Shown piece by piece: positions 2,298-18,373 of a DNA stretch of 21,339 bases. The stretch is taken from the IMG/VR virus record IMGVR_UViG_3300008012_000237, positions 1 to 21,339 of that record, one strand, 5' to 3'. The translations under genes and the position numbers were made by a program. Origin of the DNA: a virus. The number at the start of each line of letters is the position of its first letter. Position 1 is the stretch's first letter. The notes below the pieces were generated by a model. It worked only from the letters and a program-made list of their open reading frames with translations. It searched no databases and was not told the origin of the DNA.

Positions 2298-3476
2298 TTG
2301 GAAATAAAGAAAACCGAAGCATTCCGAAAAATATATAAACTCGACAAACGTATTCGTTTGATTCGTGGGGGGTCTGCTGCGGGAAAAACCATTTGCATCC
2401 TTACCATAATGATCAACGAGTGCATGAAGCCCAACAAAGGGTTTGAAATGTCCGTTGTGGCTGCGACATACCCAATGCTAAAAAGGGGGCCGGTAAGGGA
2501 CTTCAAATTGATAATGAAGGGACTTGGAAGGTGGCGTGATTCACGTTGGAATCAAACGACCTTGAAATATACATTTTCAACCGGGTCAACCATTGAATTC
2601 TTTTCAAATGAAAATCCGGATCGAACAAGGGGTGCGCGTCGCAGTCATTTGTTTGTGAACGAGTGTAATGTCGGAATCGACTTCGAAGCATTCAATCAAT
2701 ATGCAATCCGTACTTCTGAAATCATTTGGCTTGATTATAACCCGTCACAATTGTTTTGGGCGGATCGTGAACTTGTTCCAAGGGATGACGTTGATTTTAT
2801 TACAATCACATACAAAGACAACGACACGTTGCCACAAACAATCCTTGATGAATTTAAAATCGCAAGGGAAAAGGCAAAAACATCCGAATATTGGTTAAAC
2901 TTTGTAAATGTTTATTTGGAAGGTAAAATCGGACGTTTAAGCGACGTTGTGATTCCGGACTGGATTGAGGTACCAAAACTTCCCGAAGATGCACGTCTTC
3001 TTTGTTATGGACTTGACTGGGGGTATTCAATCGACGAAACAAGTTGTGTGGCATTGTACAAGCATGACGATGCTTACATCTTCGATGAGGTGTTGTATCA
3101 AAAAGGAATGTTGAATTCAAACATTTCCCAATACTTAGAAAACAACAATATCAAGGGTCAGTTGTGGGCGGATTCAGCCGAACCGAAATCCATTGCTGAA
3201 TTGCAATCGTATGGTCACACAATCAACCCGGTCACCAAAGGACGTGATTCAATAATCTACGGCATCAACTTAATAAACCAAAACAAAGTCTTCGTCACAT
3301 CAAGATCAAAGAACCTTATAAAAGAACTCAACGGATATGTATGGGCAACTGATAAGGTTGGAAACAAAATACAGAAACCAAATCCATTAAGTGGTGACCA
3401 CGCAATCGATGCCGCACGGTACGCGTTAATGATGCAACTTGAAAACCCAAACAAAGGGAAATATTTTATTTATTAA
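2298..3476 (+). CDS. terL: Terminase large subunit (packaging ATPase and nuclease)
   Basis: The N-terminal ATPase has a Walker A motif GGSAAGKT at residues 24-31 and a Walker B-like HLFVNE near 117-122. The C-terminal RNase H-fold nuclease shows its three acidic positions in GLDWGY (about 238-243), WADSAEPKS (about 290) and GDHAIDAARYA (about 365). At 392 residues it is complete but compact. It powers DNA packaging into the prohead through the portal and cuts concatemers. The start is TTG at 2298; no in-frame ATG or GTG lies between it and the in-frame stop of the small subunit at 2271-2273. The protein starts close to the usual beginning of the family (EIKKTEAFRKIY), so a TTG start is the simplest reading. 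Confidence 0.95.
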   Translation: MEIKKTEAFRKIYKLDKRIRLIRGGSAAGKTICILTIMINECMKPNKGFEMSVVAATYPMLKRGPVRDFKLIMKGLGRWRDSRWNQTTLKYTFSTGSTIEFFSNENPDRTRGARRSHLFVNECNVGIDFEAFNQYAIRTSEIIWLDYNPSQLFWADRELVPRDDVDFITITYKDNDTLPQTILDEFKIAREKAKTSEYWLNFVNVYLEGKIGRLSDVVIPDWIEVPKLPEDARLLCYGLDWGYSIDETSCVALYKHDDAYIFDEVLYQKGMLNSNISQYLENNNIKGQLWADSAEPKSIAELQSYGHTINPVTKGRDSIIYGINLINQNKVFVTSRSKNLIKELNGYVWATDKVGNKIQKPNPLSGDHAIDAARYALMMQLENPNKGKYFIY

Positions 3477-4507: not shown

Positions 4508-4597
4508 TTTTTTTTCATTTGTTTTTGATTTGGATTTGGCTGCGGAAACGTGGCCATTTCCTTTTATACATATTGGTCAAATATTTATTATTATAAT
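4508..4597 (+). other. AT-rich intergenic gap before the tail genes
   Basis: No gene is visible here. The gap has T-rich runs and a weak dyad (GGAAA 4543-4547 with TTTCC 4556-4560 around a TGGCCA core). Just before the next start is a TTATTATAATATG leader like those at 14411 and 18750. No convincing -33/-7 promoter pair was found. Confidence 0.4.
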
Positions 4598-5242
4598 ATG
4601 AAAGTAAAAATCAACGTTCCCGAAGATTTAAGCGAAATCACACTTGGTCAATACATGAAATTTCTGAAGCTGGATTTCAACGACGACACCAAGAATTCAT
4701 TCGCACTTCAAAAAATGATTGAAATATTTTGCAATGCAAATCTTAAAGATATTGCTGACATTCGTTTTTCGGACATCACACGGATCACAAATCACCTTCA
4801 GACCATATTCGACCAAGAATGCAAAATGATTCCGCAAATCGCCTTAAATGGACAAAAATACGGTTTCATTCCAAACCTTGACGATTTAAGTCTTGGGGAA
4901 TATATTGATCTTGACAATTACTTCCATGACTGGGACACAATGGACAAGGCAATGACGGTCTTGTATCGTCCGATTAAATATTCTAAAAATGGTAAATATA
5001 TCATTGAAGAATACAAAGGAACCGACAATCACATGGAAATGCGAAACCTTCCGTTGAATGTTGTTATGGGTGCAAAGGTTTTTTTTTACCATTTAGGAAT
5101 CGAATTGTTGAATCATATCCCGAACTTTTTAATGGAAGCGGACATGACGGATCAGCAACGGCAAATTTTGGAACAAAATGGGGATGGTATTCAAGCATTT
5201 ACGGACTTAGTCAAGGGAACGTTGCCCGGTTTGACAAAGTAA
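4598..5242 (+). CDS. Putative tail assembly chaperone (zero-frame product)
   Basis: I chose the ATG at 4598 (214 aa) over an in-frame ATG at 4550, because it follows a TTATTATAAT leader shared with other genes and gives a natural start (MKVKINVPEDLSEITLGQYM). The protein is helical and soluble, with recognisable blocks ITLGQYMKFLKL, LSLGEYIDLDNYFHDWDTM and AMTVLYRPIKY. The length and composition suit a phage tail assembly chaperone (lambda gpG-like) that loads the tape measure. The key support is an overlapping -1 frame that stays open past this stop and ends in ATGA on the next gene, as in G/GT systems. It lies 7 kb upstream of the tape measure, farther than usual. I am more certain that it is a tail-region gene than of the exact role. 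Confidence 0.65.
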   Translation: MKVKINVPEDLSEITLGQYMKFLKLDFNDDTKNSFALQKMIEIFCNANLKDIADIRFSDITRITNHLQTIFDQECKMIPQIALNGQKYGFIPNLDDLSLGEYIDLDNYFHDWDTMDKAMTVLYRPIKYSKNGKYIIEEYKGTDNHMEMRNLPLNVVMGAKVFFYHLGIELLNHIPNFLMEADMTDQQRQILEQNGDGIQAFTDLVKGTLPGLTK

Positions 5243-5331
5243 CAAAATTAAACGTTCACAAGTGTTTGACATTTTTGGCATTCGAAAAAGAAAAAACTGA
5301 ACTGGAACGTAAAATGATAAATAAGAAATGA
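5131..5331 (+). CDS. Putative -1 frameshift extension of the tail assembly chaperone (GT-like)
   Basis: In the -1 frame relative to the preceding gene, codons are open from 5008 to a TGA at 5329-5331 that overlaps the next ATG as ATGA. No ATG, GTG or TTG start is available in that frame before the coding-like part, so it would have to be made by -1 slippage. The translated end is protein-like: WGWYSSIYGLSQGN, then VTKLNVHKCLTFLAFEKEK. The tryptophan/helix style resembles T-domain extensions. Two slip sites are visible: UUUUUUU in the T9 run (5079-5087) and CUUUUUA at 5125-5131. The start given here assumes the second. The fusion would be about 244 aa. It also accounts for the otherwise empty 85-nt gap. 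Confidence 0.6.
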   Translation, partial: NGSGHDGSATANFGTKWGWYSSIYGLSQGNVARFDKVTKLNVHKCLTFLAFEKEKTELERKMINKK

Positions 5332-5786
5332 AACAAGTTTACGACACAACAACAAAAATAAAAGACCAACTTCAAGCGGAACCATTCATCAACACGGTGA
5401 CATTCGGTTCGCTTAATGATGTTGACCTTGACAAGCAGTCAATTTTTCCCCTTGGACATTTGACAATCAATTCCACGAATGTTGCGACAAATGTGTTTCG
5501 TTTCAATATGTCAATCCTTGTGATGGACATCGTGGACATATCAAAAGAAGAAACAACTGACAAATTCACCGGGAACGACAACGAACAAGATGTTCTTAAT
5601 ACAACACTTGCAGTTTTGACACGAGTGCTGAACATAATGCAAAGGGGTGACTTGTATACACAAAAATATCAAATCGAAGACGTGGTGTCTTGTGAACCAT
5701 TTGTCGACAGATTCGAAAACAAACTTGCGGGATGGGCAGCTTCATTTGATGTGGTTGTACAAAACGACATGACAATTTGCGATTGA
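5328..5786 (+). CDS. Putative tail completion/terminator-type protein
   Basis: This 152-residue protein has a helix near the N terminus and alternating strands (FRFNMSILVMDIVDISKE). A central helix (DVLNTTLAVLTRVLNIM) and a C-terminal strand pair (LAGWAASFDVVVQNDM) follow. This alpha/beta order is that of the small tail-terminator or tail-completion proteins that cap the tube and join it to the head. Its place before a gp10-like joining protein agrees. The start overlaps the -1 frameshift stop as ATGA, and the stop overlaps the next ATG by one base. No catalytic motif is expected or seen. The identification rests on size, fold pattern and context. Confidence 0.6.
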   Translation: MKQVYDTTTKIKDQLQAEPFINTVTFGSLNDVDLDKQSIFPLGHLTINSTNVATNVFRFNMSILVMDIVDISKEETTDKFTGNDNEQDVLNTTLAVLTRVLNIMQRGDLYTQKYQIEDVVSCEPFVDRFENKLAGWAASFDVVVQNDMTICD

Positions 5787-6319
5787 TGGAATTTAAGAAA
5801 ACACAAGAAGCACTTAAAACATTTGCCGAAACCGTTGTCAAGGAATCGAAGAAAATCGCACGTCAAAAATTCAAGAACACAACCGGGAATCTTGAAGGTT
5901 CAATTGGGTATGTTTTGAATGTATATGAAAATTCATTCAATCTTGAATTCACACTTGCAGCGGACAAAGACGGTGTACCTTATGGAAGTTTTGTTGACCT
6001 TGGTGTTCGTGGTTCAAAATCGAATTATCCAGCAAACAGAAATTCACCTTACAAATTTAGCGGAAACAAAAAATCAATTCCGCCACAATCACTTGACAAA
6101 TGGCTTGTGCGCAAAAAATTAGCACCACGAGACAATCAAGGACGATTCATTGACCGAAGATCAATCAAGTTTTTGATTGCACGTTCCATTTACGAAAAGG
6201 GTATCGAAGCGAGAAAATATTTCACAAAACCCTTTGAAGATAATTTTAACAAATTACCAAATGACGTTGTTGACGCGTTTGGATTAGACATTGACGAATT
6301 TTTTGAATTGACGACATGA
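5786..6319 (+). CDS. HK97 gp10-like head-tail joining protein
   Basis: I chose the ATG at 5786 (TGATG overlap with the previous stop) rather than an upstream TTG at 5777; this gives 177 aa. The N-terminal half is a basic helix (ETVVKESKKIARQKFKNTTG). A strand region with YGSFVDLGVRGSKSNYP follows; this aromatic-x(3)-VD-x-G-x-RG signature is typical of HK97 gp10-like and related minor tail/neck proteins. The C-terminal part has ARSIYEKGIEARKYFTKPFE, a helix also seen in that family. It would help join the filled head to the finished tail tube. The stop overlaps the next start as ATGA. Confidence 0.65.
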   Translation: MEFKKTQEALKTFAETVVKESKKIARQKFKNTTGNLEGSIGYVLNVYENSFNLEFTLAADKDGVPYGSFVDLGVRGSKSNYPANRNSPYKFSGNKKSIPPQSLDKWLVRKKLAPRDNQGRFIDRRSIKFLIARSIYEKGIEARKYFTKPFEDNFNKLPNDVVDAFGLDIDEFFELTT

Positions 6320-7764
6320 GTACAAAAATAAATGTAAGATCACCGTTTTATATTAACATCACCGAACCTTCGGTTCCGACACCAACATTCACGTGTGGGA
6401 TTGCGAACATCTTAAACTTATCAATTGACCAACAAGGTCAAATCAACACACCGACATTGTCATTTGGACAAATTGATTCAATCACTTCAAGTGATGCGGG
6501 TTTTTCAAATGGTAAGTTTGCAACGGTATCAACCGACACCGACAGAAACATCACCGTTCGTGTTTTGATTCCACAAGGATTTTCAAACGCAAGTGATGTT
6601 TACATTGATTGTGATAATCTTGTGACGCAACCCGCTTATGTTTTAAACACATCTTGTTCGGGTGGCCCGACAACAAACGGTTCAATTCCAAGTCAAACAT
6701 TAGACGTTGACGGTGATTCCGATACAATCGATTTGTCTTCTTATTTTACACAAGGAAGCGAAGCAATTGCGGGTTACACAATTTACAACCCTTCAGCGGT
6801 CGTCAATGCTTCAGTAAGTGGCGACACACTTACATTGTCATCAAATGCAATTGGTGGTTCAACCACGGTTCATGTATCGGCATTTGACAACGCATCAAAT
6901 TCTTGTACTGCGACACAATCAATAAGTGTGACAGTAAATGCACCAAGTCAAACTTATGCGTGTACAAATAACGGAATAAATGCATTGGCCGGTGGTTCAA
7001 TTGCACAAGACGGAACAATCACAAATCCAAATTCAACCGGAACAATCACGGCAATCAAGGCAACATCCGGCGGCGCAACAATCACATCACATTCAGCAAA
7101 CAACACCGGAAGTGATCGAAGTGTGACATTGTTCTTTGATATTACGGCACCGGCGGGATATTCAAATGCGGGTGCAACGATTGAATGTTCAGCAACATTT
7201 ACACAACCCGCGGGTGATCCCGAATTCACTTGTGACATTGCAAATTTAAGTGGACAACAGATTTCCACAAAAGGAATCATAAATCCCGGAAGTGCGCAAA
7301 TCGGTACAATTTCAGATTGGACGCCAAAAACATTTTCCGAAGTTTCAACCGACACATCAAGAACAATCACATTCACGGTTGATGTTCCAAGTGGATATTC
7401 AAATTCGGGAACAATCAGTTGTCCAAAGACAATAAATCAACCCGCATCAACACCAACGTGTGGAACAAACAATTTTTTCATAAGCGCGGGGTCATTGGTT
7501 CCGGGTAGTTTTTGCACCGCAGTATATCCAGTTTCAAGCGCGATTTCAAGCACCGGCAATTTATATGGACTTGGGGGTGTTGTGTGTAAAAATGGAACAC
7601 CATTCAATGGTCAAGACTTATATTATGCCGTTGCGGTAAGCAATGTAAATGTCGGCCCGAATTATGGTAATTTCATTATTTGGCAAATCGATTCAAATGG
7701 TGTTATTCTTGACGTAAGGGAATCAAATTGTAAGGGAACAGTCGGGGACACCGTCGCATTATAA
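6316..7764 (+). CDS. Repeat-rich Ig-like virion surface protein
   Basis: This 482-residue protein is rich in Ser, Thr, Asn and Gly, with almost no predicted helix. Three related units of about 75-90 residues start near residues 25 (FTCGIANI), 214 (YACTNNGI) and 304 (FTCDIANL). Each contains an S-D-R-x-(I/V)-T strand, a P-x-G-(F/Y)-SN turn and a final Cys followed by QPA. Between units 1 and 2 lies a cadherin/Ig-like segment (SIPSQTLDVDGDSDTIDLSS). The C-terminal 100 residues are distinct, end in SNCKGTVGDTVAL and resemble the terminal domains of the large protein at 8762. It probably sits on the tail surface and binds host polysaccharide or protein. It overlaps the previous gene by 4 nt. Confidence 0.7.
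   Translation: MSTKINVRSPFYINITEPSVPTPTFTCGIANILNLSIDQQGQINTPTLSFGQIDSITSSDAGFSNGKFATVSTDTDRNITVRVLIPQGFSNASDVYIDCDNLVTQPAYVLNTSCSGGPTTNGSIPSQTLDVDGDSDTIDLSSYFTQGSEAIAGYTIYNPSAVVNASVSGDTLTLSSNAIGGSTTVHVSAFDNASNSCTATQSISVTVNAPSQTYACTNNGINALAGGSIAQDGTITNPNSTGTITAIKATSGGATITSHSANNTGSDRSVTLFFDITAPAGYSNAGATIECSATFTQPAGDPEFTCDIANLSGQQISTKGIINPGSAQIGTISDWTPKTFSEVSTDTSRTITFTVDVPSGYSNSGTISCPKTINQPASTPTCGTNNFFISAGSLVPGSFCTAVYPVSSAISSTGNLYGLGGVVCKNGTPFNGQDLYYAVAVSNVNVGPNYGNFIIWQIDSNGVILDVRESNCKGTVGDTVAL
6388..7450 (+). repeat. Three diverged Ig-like coding repeats
   Basis: Units lie at about 6388-6645, 6954-7215 and 7225-7450. They align at protein level through their first Cys, the DR-x-(I/V)-T strand, the G-(F/Y)-SN turn and the closing C-x(n)-QPA. 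Units 2 and 3 are adjacent; unit 1 is separated from them by an unrelated Ig/cadherin-like segment. Confidence 0.65.
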
Positions 7765-12361: not shown

Positions 12362-12505
12362 ATGATTGATAATATTTTAAACCTACTGCAAATCGCAAAA
12401 GAAGAAAACTGGCAAGGCGAATACATCGACACCGCCCTTGGAAAAAACAAGATTCCCCAAACATTAAGGGAAGCAATAAAACAAATAAAACATGAAACAA
12501 GTTGA
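12362..12505 (+). CDS. Small ORF (47 aa) overlapping the tape measure start
   Basis: ATG 12362 to TGA 12503-12505 encodes 47 residues: MIDNILNLLQIAKEENWQGE, then a segment with YIDTALGKNKIP and an amphipathic helix TLREAIKQIKHE. It follows the tail-tip gene by 9 nt after an A-rich leader and overlaps the tape measure start at 12492 by 14 nt, so the two are probably translationally coupled. Composition is protein-like and it fills an otherwise empty gap of 139 nt. A small chaperone or leader role for the tape measure is possible but unproven. Confidence 0.55.
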   Translation: MIDNILNLLQIAKEENWQGEYIDTALGKNKIPQTLREAIKQIKHETS

Positions 12506-14381
12506 AATTGAATTAATTGCCAAGGCCGACAAGGCCATAAAGGAAGTCCAAGATTTAAAAAAGGAACTTGAAGCATCACGCAAGGCAACCGAAGAAATAA
12601 ACGAAACCGGAAAGAAGGGATTCAAGGGTCTTGGAAAATCCTTGAAAGACGTTCAAAAAGGTGTTGCCGGAATCAAAAAAGGATTTGGCGTTGCTGGTAT
12701 TGCCGTCAAGGGTTTTGTCTTGGCGTTGGGTGCTGGTATATTCAAAACGTTTGTTGATATTGCAAAACAAAATCAAGTTGTTGTTGATGCACTTGCAGTC
12801 GCATTTGGAACGGTTTCGTCCGTTGTGAATCAAGTTGTGAATGGTTTGACAAACGCATACAAATCGGTTCAAGATGCAACTGGTGGTTTTGATGCACTCG
12901 GAAAGGTCTTAAAAAATGTTGTACTTATTCCCTTAAATGTAATTAAAACAACATTCTTTGGACTTCAAAAGGCATTACTTACGGCACAAGCCGCGTGGGA
13001 AATGTCATTCCTTGGTGGCAAAGACCCGCAAAAACTTGCTGAATTAAATACCAAACTTGAAGAAGTTGATGCAAACATCAAAGAATCAACATCGTCACTT
13101 GTCGATAATGTAAAGAATATCGGTCAAGGATTCAGCGAAGCCGTTGACGAAGTTGCGACATTTGGTAAGGCGGCAATCGATAACATCAAAGAAATCGACG
13201 TTGTTCAAACGGCATCAAATCAGAAACGTTTACAACAATTAAGAAACGAGGCAAGACTGGCCATTGCAGAAAACGACAAACTTCAGTTTGAATATCAACT
13301 TGCAGCGGAACGACAAAGACAACTTCGTGACGACGTTACGGCATCAATTGAAGACCGTACAAAGGCAAACAACAAACTTGGCGAAGTATTACAAGAACAA
13401 TTTGCATTGCAAGAAGCAAACGCCTTGAAATTGCTTGAACTTCGAAAACTTGAATTGGCGGCAAATCCACAATCCATTGAAGCACAAGAAGCACTTATTG
13501 AAGCAGAAAAGAATCTTGCAGACGTCCGGGAAAACATTGCCGGGTTTGAATCTGAACAACGTGTGAATGCTGAAGCATTAGAATTGGAAGCGATTGAACT
13601 TATCAATACCAAAAAAGAAGCGGAAAACGCACGACTGATTGCAAAGAAACAATTCAATGCCGAAGAAATTGACGATGAACTTGCAAAACTTCAAGCATTA
13701 AAAGAAATCGCACTTCAAGAAAAAGAACTTGAAGAAACAAGATTGCAAGAACAAATCGATCGACTTGGAATCGGAACACAAGCACGTCAAGATGCCGAAC
13801 AACAATTGCTTGATTTCCGACAAGAAAAAGATTTGCAAATCCAAGAACTTGACAACCAAATCACGGATCAAGAAGACAAGAACAGAAAACAAACATTGGC
13901 CGAAGAAGAACTTCTTCAAAAACAAAAACTTGCAATTGCGAGTGATGCCCTTGGTGCCGTGTCACAATTACTCGGTGAAAATTCCAAGGCTGGTAAGGCT
14001 GCGGCAATTGCTCAAGCAATTATCAATTCATATCTTGGATTCACCGAAGTACTTAAAACACCGACAACACTTCCCGAACCGTTTGGTTCAATTCAAAAGG
14101 CCGTGTCCGCTGCGGGTATTCTTGCGAGTGGTTTAAAAACGGTCAAACAAATTGCATCAACACAAATTCCGGGTGGGGGTGGTGGTTCAGCGGGCGCACG
14201 GGGTGCGTCAGCACCAGCGGCACCAGCATTCAATGTCGTGGGTGCATCACCGGAAAATCAACTTGCCGAAGCATTGGGCGACCAACAAAAACAACCGGTC
14301 AAGGCTTATGTGGTATCGGATGACGTTACAAATGCACAAGCAATGGATCGTAAAATTGTCAAAGGTGCGTCAATTGGATAA
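12492..14381 (+). CDS. Tail tape measure protein
   Basis: This 629-residue protein starts with a charged coiled coil (residues 1-45). A hydrophobic, glycine-rich region follows at about 60-170 (GVAGIAVKGFVLALGAGIF, VVVDALAVAFGTVSSVV), then a long Glu/Lys/Gln/Ala-rich coiled coil to about 500. After that comes a second hydrophobic helix near AAAIAQAIINSYLGF and a glycine/alanine-rich linker with GGGGGSAGARG. The end, KAYVVSDDVTNAQAMDRKI, is a C-terminal signature I associate with tape measures of Bacteroidetes phages. It sets tail length; at about 1.5 Angstrom per residue the tail would be roughly 95 nm, an estimate. No peptidase or muramidase domain is visible. Confidence 0.9.
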   Translation: MKQVEIELIAKADKAIKEVQDLKKELEASRKATEEINETGKKGFKGLGKSLKDVQKGVAGIKKGFGVAGIAVKGFVLALGAGIFKTFVDIAKQNQVVVDALAVAFGTVSSVVNQVVNGLTNAYKSVQDATGGFDALGKVLKNVVLIPLNVIKTTFFGLQKALLTAQAAWEMSFLGGKDPQKLAELNTKLEEVDANIKESTSSLVDNVKNIGQGFSEAVDEVATFGKAAIDNIKEIDVVQTASNQKRLQQLRNEARLAIAENDKLQFEYQLAAERQRQLRDDVTASIEDRTKANNKLGEVLQEQFALQEANALKLLELRKLELAANPQSIEAQEALIEAEKNLADVRENIAGFESEQRVNAEALELEAIELINTKKEAENARLIAKKQFNAEEIDDELAKLQALKEIALQEKELEETRLQEQIDRLGIGTQARQDAEQQLLDFRQEKDLQIQELDNQITDQEDKNRKQTLAEEELLQKQKLAIASDALGAVSQLLGENSKAGKAAAIAQAIINSYLGFTEVLKTPTTLPEPFGSIQKAVSAAGILASGLKTVKQIASTQIPGGGGGSAGARGASAPAAPAFNVVGASPENQLAEALGDQQKQPVKAYVVSDDVTNAQAMDRKIVKGASIG

Positions 14382-17764: not shown

Positions 17765-17808
17765 AAAAAGGGGTGGGCGATCCAAACGGTTCACCCGCCT
17801 TTTTTTTT
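17765..17808 (+). terminator. Intrinsic terminator after the major capsid gene
   Basis: AAAAAGG (17765-17771) pairs with CCTTTTT (17798-17804), and an inner GGG/CCC plus GA/TC and CC/GG pairs close around an AAAC loop with small bulges. A run of nine T ends it (17800-17808). It would limit expression of downstream genes relative to the capsid gene. Confidence 0.7.
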
Positions 17809-17824: not shown

Positions 17825-18373
17825 ATGGCTTGCGATTTATCATTAGGACGAAAACTTCCATGCAAGGACGTTGTCGGTGGTTTGAAGGCGGTTTATTTCA
17901 CCGATTTTGGTGATTTTGGAACCGTGACACAAACAGACGATGAAATCACCGACATGGACGGAACGTTTACGGCATTTAAATATGAATTGAAGGGAAATTC
18001 TTCATTCGAACAAACATTCACGACATCACGTGAAAATGGCACGGTGTTTTGGGAACAAACATTGAATTTGACTTTGACAAAATTGTCAAAAGAAGACAAC
18101 AAAGAATTAAAACTTCTTGCATACGGAAGACCACACGTCGCCGTTGAAGATTACAACGGAAATGTTTTCGTGATGGGTCTTGAACATGGTGCCGAAGTAA
18201 GTGGCGGAACCGTTGTGACTGGCGGTGCGATGGGGGATTTGAGCGGATATACTTTGACGTTATCAGCACAAGAATTAAAACCAGCGAATTTTGTTGATTC
18301 ACCAACTGCGACTGATCCATTTGATGGAATGGGAAGTGCAACGGTGACCGTTACCCAAGGAACAAATTCATAA
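17825..18373 (+). CDS. Major tail tube protein
   Basis: This 182-residue beta-rich protein starts CDLSLGRKLPCKDVVGGLKA and contains the blocks YFTDFGDFG, SFEQTFTTSRENGTVFWEQ and GDLSGYTLTLSAQELKPAN. These match the tail tube protein pattern I know from Bacteroidetes siphophages, including the two N-terminal cysteines. Subunits form the hexameric tube around the tape measure. It lies apart from the rest of the tail genes, directly after the capsid gene. Terminator hairpins on both sides suggest that its messenger level is tuned separately, in line with a high-copy protein. Confidence 0.85.
   Translation: MACDLSLGRKLPCKDVVGGLKAVYFTDFGDFGTVTQTDDEITDMDGTFTAFKYELKGNSSFEQTFTTSRENGTVFWEQTLNLTLTKLSKEDNKELKLLAYGRPHVAVEDYNGNVFVMGLEHGAEVSGGTVVTGGAMGDLSGYTLTLSAQELKPANFVDSPTATDPFDGMGSATVTVTQGTNS

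Follow-up and report, generated by a model that had tools for sequence, protein, structure and literature searches.

In phage lambda, the G/GT frameshift is a classic example of ribosomal recoding, through which a protein ratio is set for tail assembly. Slippage during transcription is represented by Thermus thermophilus dnaX, IS transposases, Shigella mxiE and spa13, and Citrobacter tssM, the last of which has been explicitly paralleled with the lambda G/GT pair (PMC4256274). Nine A or T residues is the length reported for efficient slippage of bacterial RNA polymerase in vivo (PMC5009743; PMC1088944), the RNA–DNA hybrid of the bacterial enzyme spans 9–10 bp (PMC5009743), and for the Escherichia coli polymerase T runs provoke slippage more easily than A runs do (PMC6260861). 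The literature searched, mostly papers available without subscription, yielded no report of transcriptional slippage for a phage tail gene or of the arrangement described below, and no measurement of T9 slippage for a Bacteroidota polymerase. Cultured Nonlabens phages P12024L and P12024S (Inhavirus) carry the same G gene, T9 run and −1-frame T part, which in both follow the large terminase gene; they differ in having a shorter zero-frame tail after the run and in being annotated with two separate proteins. The families phrog_32199 (G) and phrog_38404 (T) have no assigned function, and the literature searched describes no frameshift link between them.

The window analysed here is a 21,339-nt stretch of a viral metagenome contig (IMG/VR record IMGVR_UViG_3300008012_000237). 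Its G gene (4598–5242, plus strand) encodes 214 aa from an ATG at 4598 that aligns with the initiator methionine in 231 of 238 relatives. A GTG at 4550 gives the longest reading of G; the relatives begin at the ATG equivalent to 4598. The T9 run (5079–5087, plus strand), read in the zero frame as GTT TTT TTT TAC, codes for G residues 161–164. The −1-frame C-terminal part, T (5080–5331, plus strand), comprises 83 codons plus a stop (FFLPFRNRIVESYPELF...KWGWY...RKMINKK), and the tail of G in the zero frame overlaps it in a region (5088–5242, plus strand) whose substitution pattern indicates dual coding. The initial annotation gave the −1 frame as open from 5008 to 5331, bridging the 85-nt gap past the zero-frame stop at 5242; these coordinates are correct, as is the ATGA overlap between the end of T and the start at 5328 of the next gene (5328–5786, plus strand; 152 aa).

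This locus resembles lambda gpG/gpGT in its two predicted products with one N-terminus, −1 extension, dual-coding overlap and position among late structural genes. As in the G/GT chaperones, two overlapping frames appear to be joined by a conserved programmed frameshift, given the −1 relation at all 425 related loci and the conserved slip site. Unlike lambda, which has a heptamer near the end of G, the locus carries a T9 run, and the shift precedes the stop of G by about 50 codons, with the result that the G tail is replaced in G-T; moreover, the pair is not adjacent to the putative tape measure gene and shows no detectable sequence similarity to its lambda counterpart. With the transcriptional slippage genes it shares a conserved stretch of nine or more A/T residues inside a coding region, two joined frames and the lack of any detected stimulatory RNA structure, whereas it is a phage assembly gene known from its sequence and has a T run in contrast to the A runs of IS elements and tssM.

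The best overall explanation, which we regard as likely, is that polymerase slippage on the T9 run yields G and G-T as tail-chaperone-like forms. Ordinary transcripts would be translated into G. Where RNA polymerase slips on the T9 run, adding one U or losing two, the Phe-Phe codons would be the point at which the ribosome enters the −1 frame, and such slipped transcripts would direct synthesis of a G-T protein of about 246 aa, in which the conserved 83-aa helical part replaces the variable G tail. Both products would originate from the gene at 4598 and share their first ~163 residues.

Related loci were collected from IMG/VR, cultured phages and bacterial genomes, and divergent clades later supplied additional seeds. 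Every locus with both parts in the first relative set already showed T in the −1 frame of G, and the relation holds in 425 of 425 loci. By itself, the openness of the −1 frame is weak evidence, being only modestly unlikely: when codons are redrawn by usage under an unchanged zero-frame protein, it arises by chance with P of ~0.001 for 5008–5241 and 0.033 for 5080–5241, and a T9 appears somewhere in G in 18% of synonymous recodings. We take the frame as real because of its conservation, both in the 425 loci and in the uninterrupted run of at least nine T's present at 309 of 309 distinct sites, exactly where the conserved −1 peptide begins. Stops or a lack of conservation in the −1 frame of homologues, named in advance as grounds for rejection, were looked for among the relatives, and the frame proved to be conserved. 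The conserved peptide extends from the first codons in the T run (FFLxFxxRIxxxYxELF...FGxKWGWYQSIYGL...CLxxLxFEKEK), some 30 codons upstream of KWGWY, P12024L included. The −1 frame opens just two bases before the run in 11 non-redundant relatives and later in none. Since stops in this frame reach up to two bases before the run, −1 coding must start at the T9 (~5080) and not at 5008, where the initial annotation had placed the beginning of an otherwise genuine coding part. Since the frame never opens after the run start, the frame change occurs at or after the run, and the conserved peptide narrows this down to the run itself. The T9 had been proposed as a slip site, and the relatives bear this out. 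A second candidate, the CTTTTTA at 5125–5131, has to be abandoned: it is conserved in only 5 of 263 relatives, and the conserved −1 peptide is already present upstream of it.

Substitutions in the overlap were compared in both frames, as had been suggested, using 78 independent pairs. They number 626 and 632 at the third positions of the two frames and 357 at the remaining position, a pattern indicating that both frames are under selection, which in turn suggests that G and G-T probably both matter. Judged by all these comparisons among relatives, the −1 frame is real coding sequence and forms the C-terminal part of a frameshift fusion with G. A fusion of G and T in a single open reading frame was found in none of the fetched loci; further scans aimed at fusion-like chains brought new clades, with a T9 wherever the site was covered, and no such fusion. 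Several single viral chains in BFVD (A0A516L611, A0A516L5A8, A0A6J5SVK3, A0A6J7WDG4, A0A6J7WJY4 and others; 226–267 aa) match both the G and T models, which suggests natural G-T fusions elsewhere. We treat these chains as a lead only; if truly fused in line, they would confirm the G-T product. In locus L045, an in-frame TAG (~2797) interrupts G ahead of a T9 and a T that are both intact, which reflects either an error in the sequence or a defective copy; the automatic search missed its run, although the T9 is present. Locus L271 ends before the slip site.

What the two proteins do is a separate question. Our best guess, which we consider fairly probable, is a tail-assembly chaperone, because weak hints combine with the two-product layout. 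The initial annotation was right about a G/GT-like extension, and its tail-chaperone identification stays plausible rather than proven, with negligible profile matches and a tape measure gene 7 kb away. Structure prediction gives G a mixed fold whose core is confident to about residue 174 and whose tail is unreliable, and it makes T helical with moderate confidence. The hints comprise a BFVD match to a chain named tail assembly chaperone (E 0.15, probability 0.87) and a Phage_TAC_7 match in 1 of 58 members (E 0.022), both weak. In profile searches, the window's G matches phrog_32199 (E 2.6e-13), and 16 of 65 T relatives match phrog_38404 (best E 6e-44). A search with the window's own T in Pfam, PHROGs and the PDB gave nothing useful, and no solved structure in the PDB matches the G fold. 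The G fold has a relative in Flavobacterium phage 6H, a 191-aa protein (E 1.8e-4) that by its length is gp10, encoded within the block of genes that immediately precedes the annotated tape measure gene. In this phage (L314; NC_021867.1, 10047–10927, minus strand), an unannotated gap of 300 nt after gp10 contains protein-like open frames, which would require the reading frame to change close to a T6 run; a clean −1 continuation was looked for in the gp10 region and not found.

Alternatively, the frameshift may be real while G and G-T act as something else, for example another head–tail connector or assembly factor, an identity independent of the slip mechanism. This reading agrees with the lack of significant Pfam or PDB matches and with gene order: the locus is flanked by terminase on one side and neck-like genes on the other, and neck-like and other genes separate it from the putative tape measure gene (12492–14381), so the pair is not directly upstream of that gene, in the same order as in a related prophage. 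We nevertheless find it the less likely of the two, as a two-product layout is typical of the chaperones of long-tailed phages, and the BFVD and Phage_TAC_7 hints as well as the position of the 6H fold relative point the same way. Accepting the chaperone assignment, we infer that the products would act like lambda gpG/gpGT and that their ratio may matter.

The T run itself shows an unusual degree of constraint. Among the 309 distinct sites, 265 have T9, 41 T10, one T11 and two T12. The third base of the second Phe codon shows no changes in 238 sequences, although TTT to TTC at this codon would leave the zero-frame protein unaltered and exchange Leu for Leu in the −1 frame; on the same tree, conserved Phe codons elsewhere whose third base is free show 7–32 changes. 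The Phe at +3 is likewise invariant, and its third base is the middle base of the overlapping zero-frame Leu codon. Beyond a core of seven T's, the 5′ and 3′ extensions are distributed as (1,1) in 246 cases, (1,2) in 36, (2,0) in 18, (2,1) in five, (0,2) in one and longer in three; they never sum below two, and no member has a run under nine. The usual register is xTT TTT TTT Txx. In 18 relatives the 3′ T is lost and a 5′ T gained (TTT TTT TTT followed by another base), and in one the 5′ T is lost and a 3′ T gained (GGT TTT TTT TTG). On one approximate tree, parsimony has the run shift to (2,0) five times and to (0,2) once. Three registers with compensating changes that hold the length at nine or more thus provide an evolutionary test, the outcome of which indicates dependence on run length rather than codon register. 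The alignments indicate that selection acts on the run itself, with some of the extra T's probably also favoured by the encoded residues, hydrophobic before the run and aromatic after it. Other runs of at least nine T's are scarce (just eight in 413 kb of 75 diverse loci, before or between genes and most after terminator-like hairpins), which, as expected, would fit a T9 inside a gene being costly.

The initial annotation had attributed the slip at the T9 to a ribosomal heptamer; the site holds, and the evidence favours RNA polymerase as the slipping enzyme. In the ribosomal scheme, two Phe tRNAs would slip in tandem by −1 on a U_UUU_UUU within the run, in the manner of lambda-type tail genes, whose heptamer is a different one. 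That heptamer is present in frame in every member and all three registers, so the presence of the run alone cannot separate ribosome from polymerase; −1 ribosomal shifting is, besides, the known route for G/GT genes (PMC5009743). However, a heptamer needs no outer T's, and yet changes among these on the 5′ and 3′ sides offset one another so that the total stays at nine. U_UUU_UUC, equally canonical as X_XXY_YYZ, never occurs, though U_UUU_UUU may be the more slippery of the two. Frameshifting on U_UUU_UUU in E. coli is far weaker than on A_AAA_AAG (PMC5009743). A stimulator such as a stem-loop or pseudoknot after the heptamer is frequent in ribosomal frameshifting, though not universal. As judged by folding z beside the run, no RNA structure signal was detected downstream or upstream of the site, the mean downstream value being −0.04 to −0.18 in 70 relatives. 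We consider ribosomal slippage unlikely. Because run length is held at nine or more while the register slides, with no TTC and no RNA structure, programmed RNA-polymerase slippage is the favoured mechanism and, on this comparative evidence, quite probably the correct one.

It is highly improbable that T stands alone as a gene, expressed from a start codon of its own or through reinitiation beyond the stop of G, with no fusion formed. The annotation of P12024L and P12024S does present T as an independent gene, beginning at an ATG that overlaps the earlier stop of G, and between the run and KWGW an ATG occurs in 11 of 244 relatives and a GTG or TTG in 19. Nevertheless, the remaining 214 of 244 have no start codon there, and in the window the −1 frame contains no ATG, GTG or TTG upstream of KWGWY, in agreement with the original statement that no start codon serves this frame. 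The −1 peptide is conserved well upstream of KWGWY, in P12024L as well, and a separate gene would leave the invariant T9 unexplained. Least credible of all is a phase-variation tract at the DNA level or a sequencing or assembly error hiding an in-frame gene: homopolymers are prone to both, but G and T share a frame in none of the 425 loci, longer runs arise by substitutions that preserve the −1 relation, both overlap frames appear selected, and the site turns up again in cultured phages, in many independent metagenomes and on a chromosome-scale contig.

The predicted T9-linked fusion is, as far as these comparisons reach, widespread in phages of marine Flavobacteria, and current annotation misses it by splitting or truncating the gene. 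In P12024L (L162; JQ823123.1, locus 2501–3195) and P12024S (L163), the parts are annotated as two hypothetical proteins, genes 40/41 and 38/39, respectively, and the annotated start of the second gene is likely misplaced in both. In cultured phages, tblastn with a short T query gave no match; a longer T consensus found the Nonlabens phages only, plus one chance-level match. Whether a group of Bacteroidota phages sets its tail-chaperone ratio by polymerase slippage on T9, not by ribosomal frameshifting, we regard as evenly balanced. If so, the ratio of two assembly proteins would be fixed at transcription by the host polymerase, and an output of the G/GT kind would apparently come from a different machine. 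The preservation of nine T's under a sliding register amounts to a natural experiment, and the idea predicts productive T9 slippage by Bacteroidota RNA polymerase; it is testable, as cultured P12024L and P12024S carry the site.

The same site is found in a prophage (L323, 5230–18437) on a 3.9-Mb contig, in a genome belonging to the same family as a Winogradskyella assembly. Its gene order follows that of the window (terminase, G/T, neck-like, tail, tape-measure-like, protease and capsid genes), and the gene that follows T in the window is also the next one there. The tail region of the window additionally encodes, at 6316–7764, a 482-aa protein bearing Ig-like repeats, which has no PHROG match and no counterpart at that position in the prophage. 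A candidate tail-tube gene lies at 17825–18373. Finally, a G+C-rich inverted repeat followed by a second T9 run (17800–17808) lies at 17768–17808, between a capsid-like gene and the next gene; this run is an intrinsic terminator, not a slip site.
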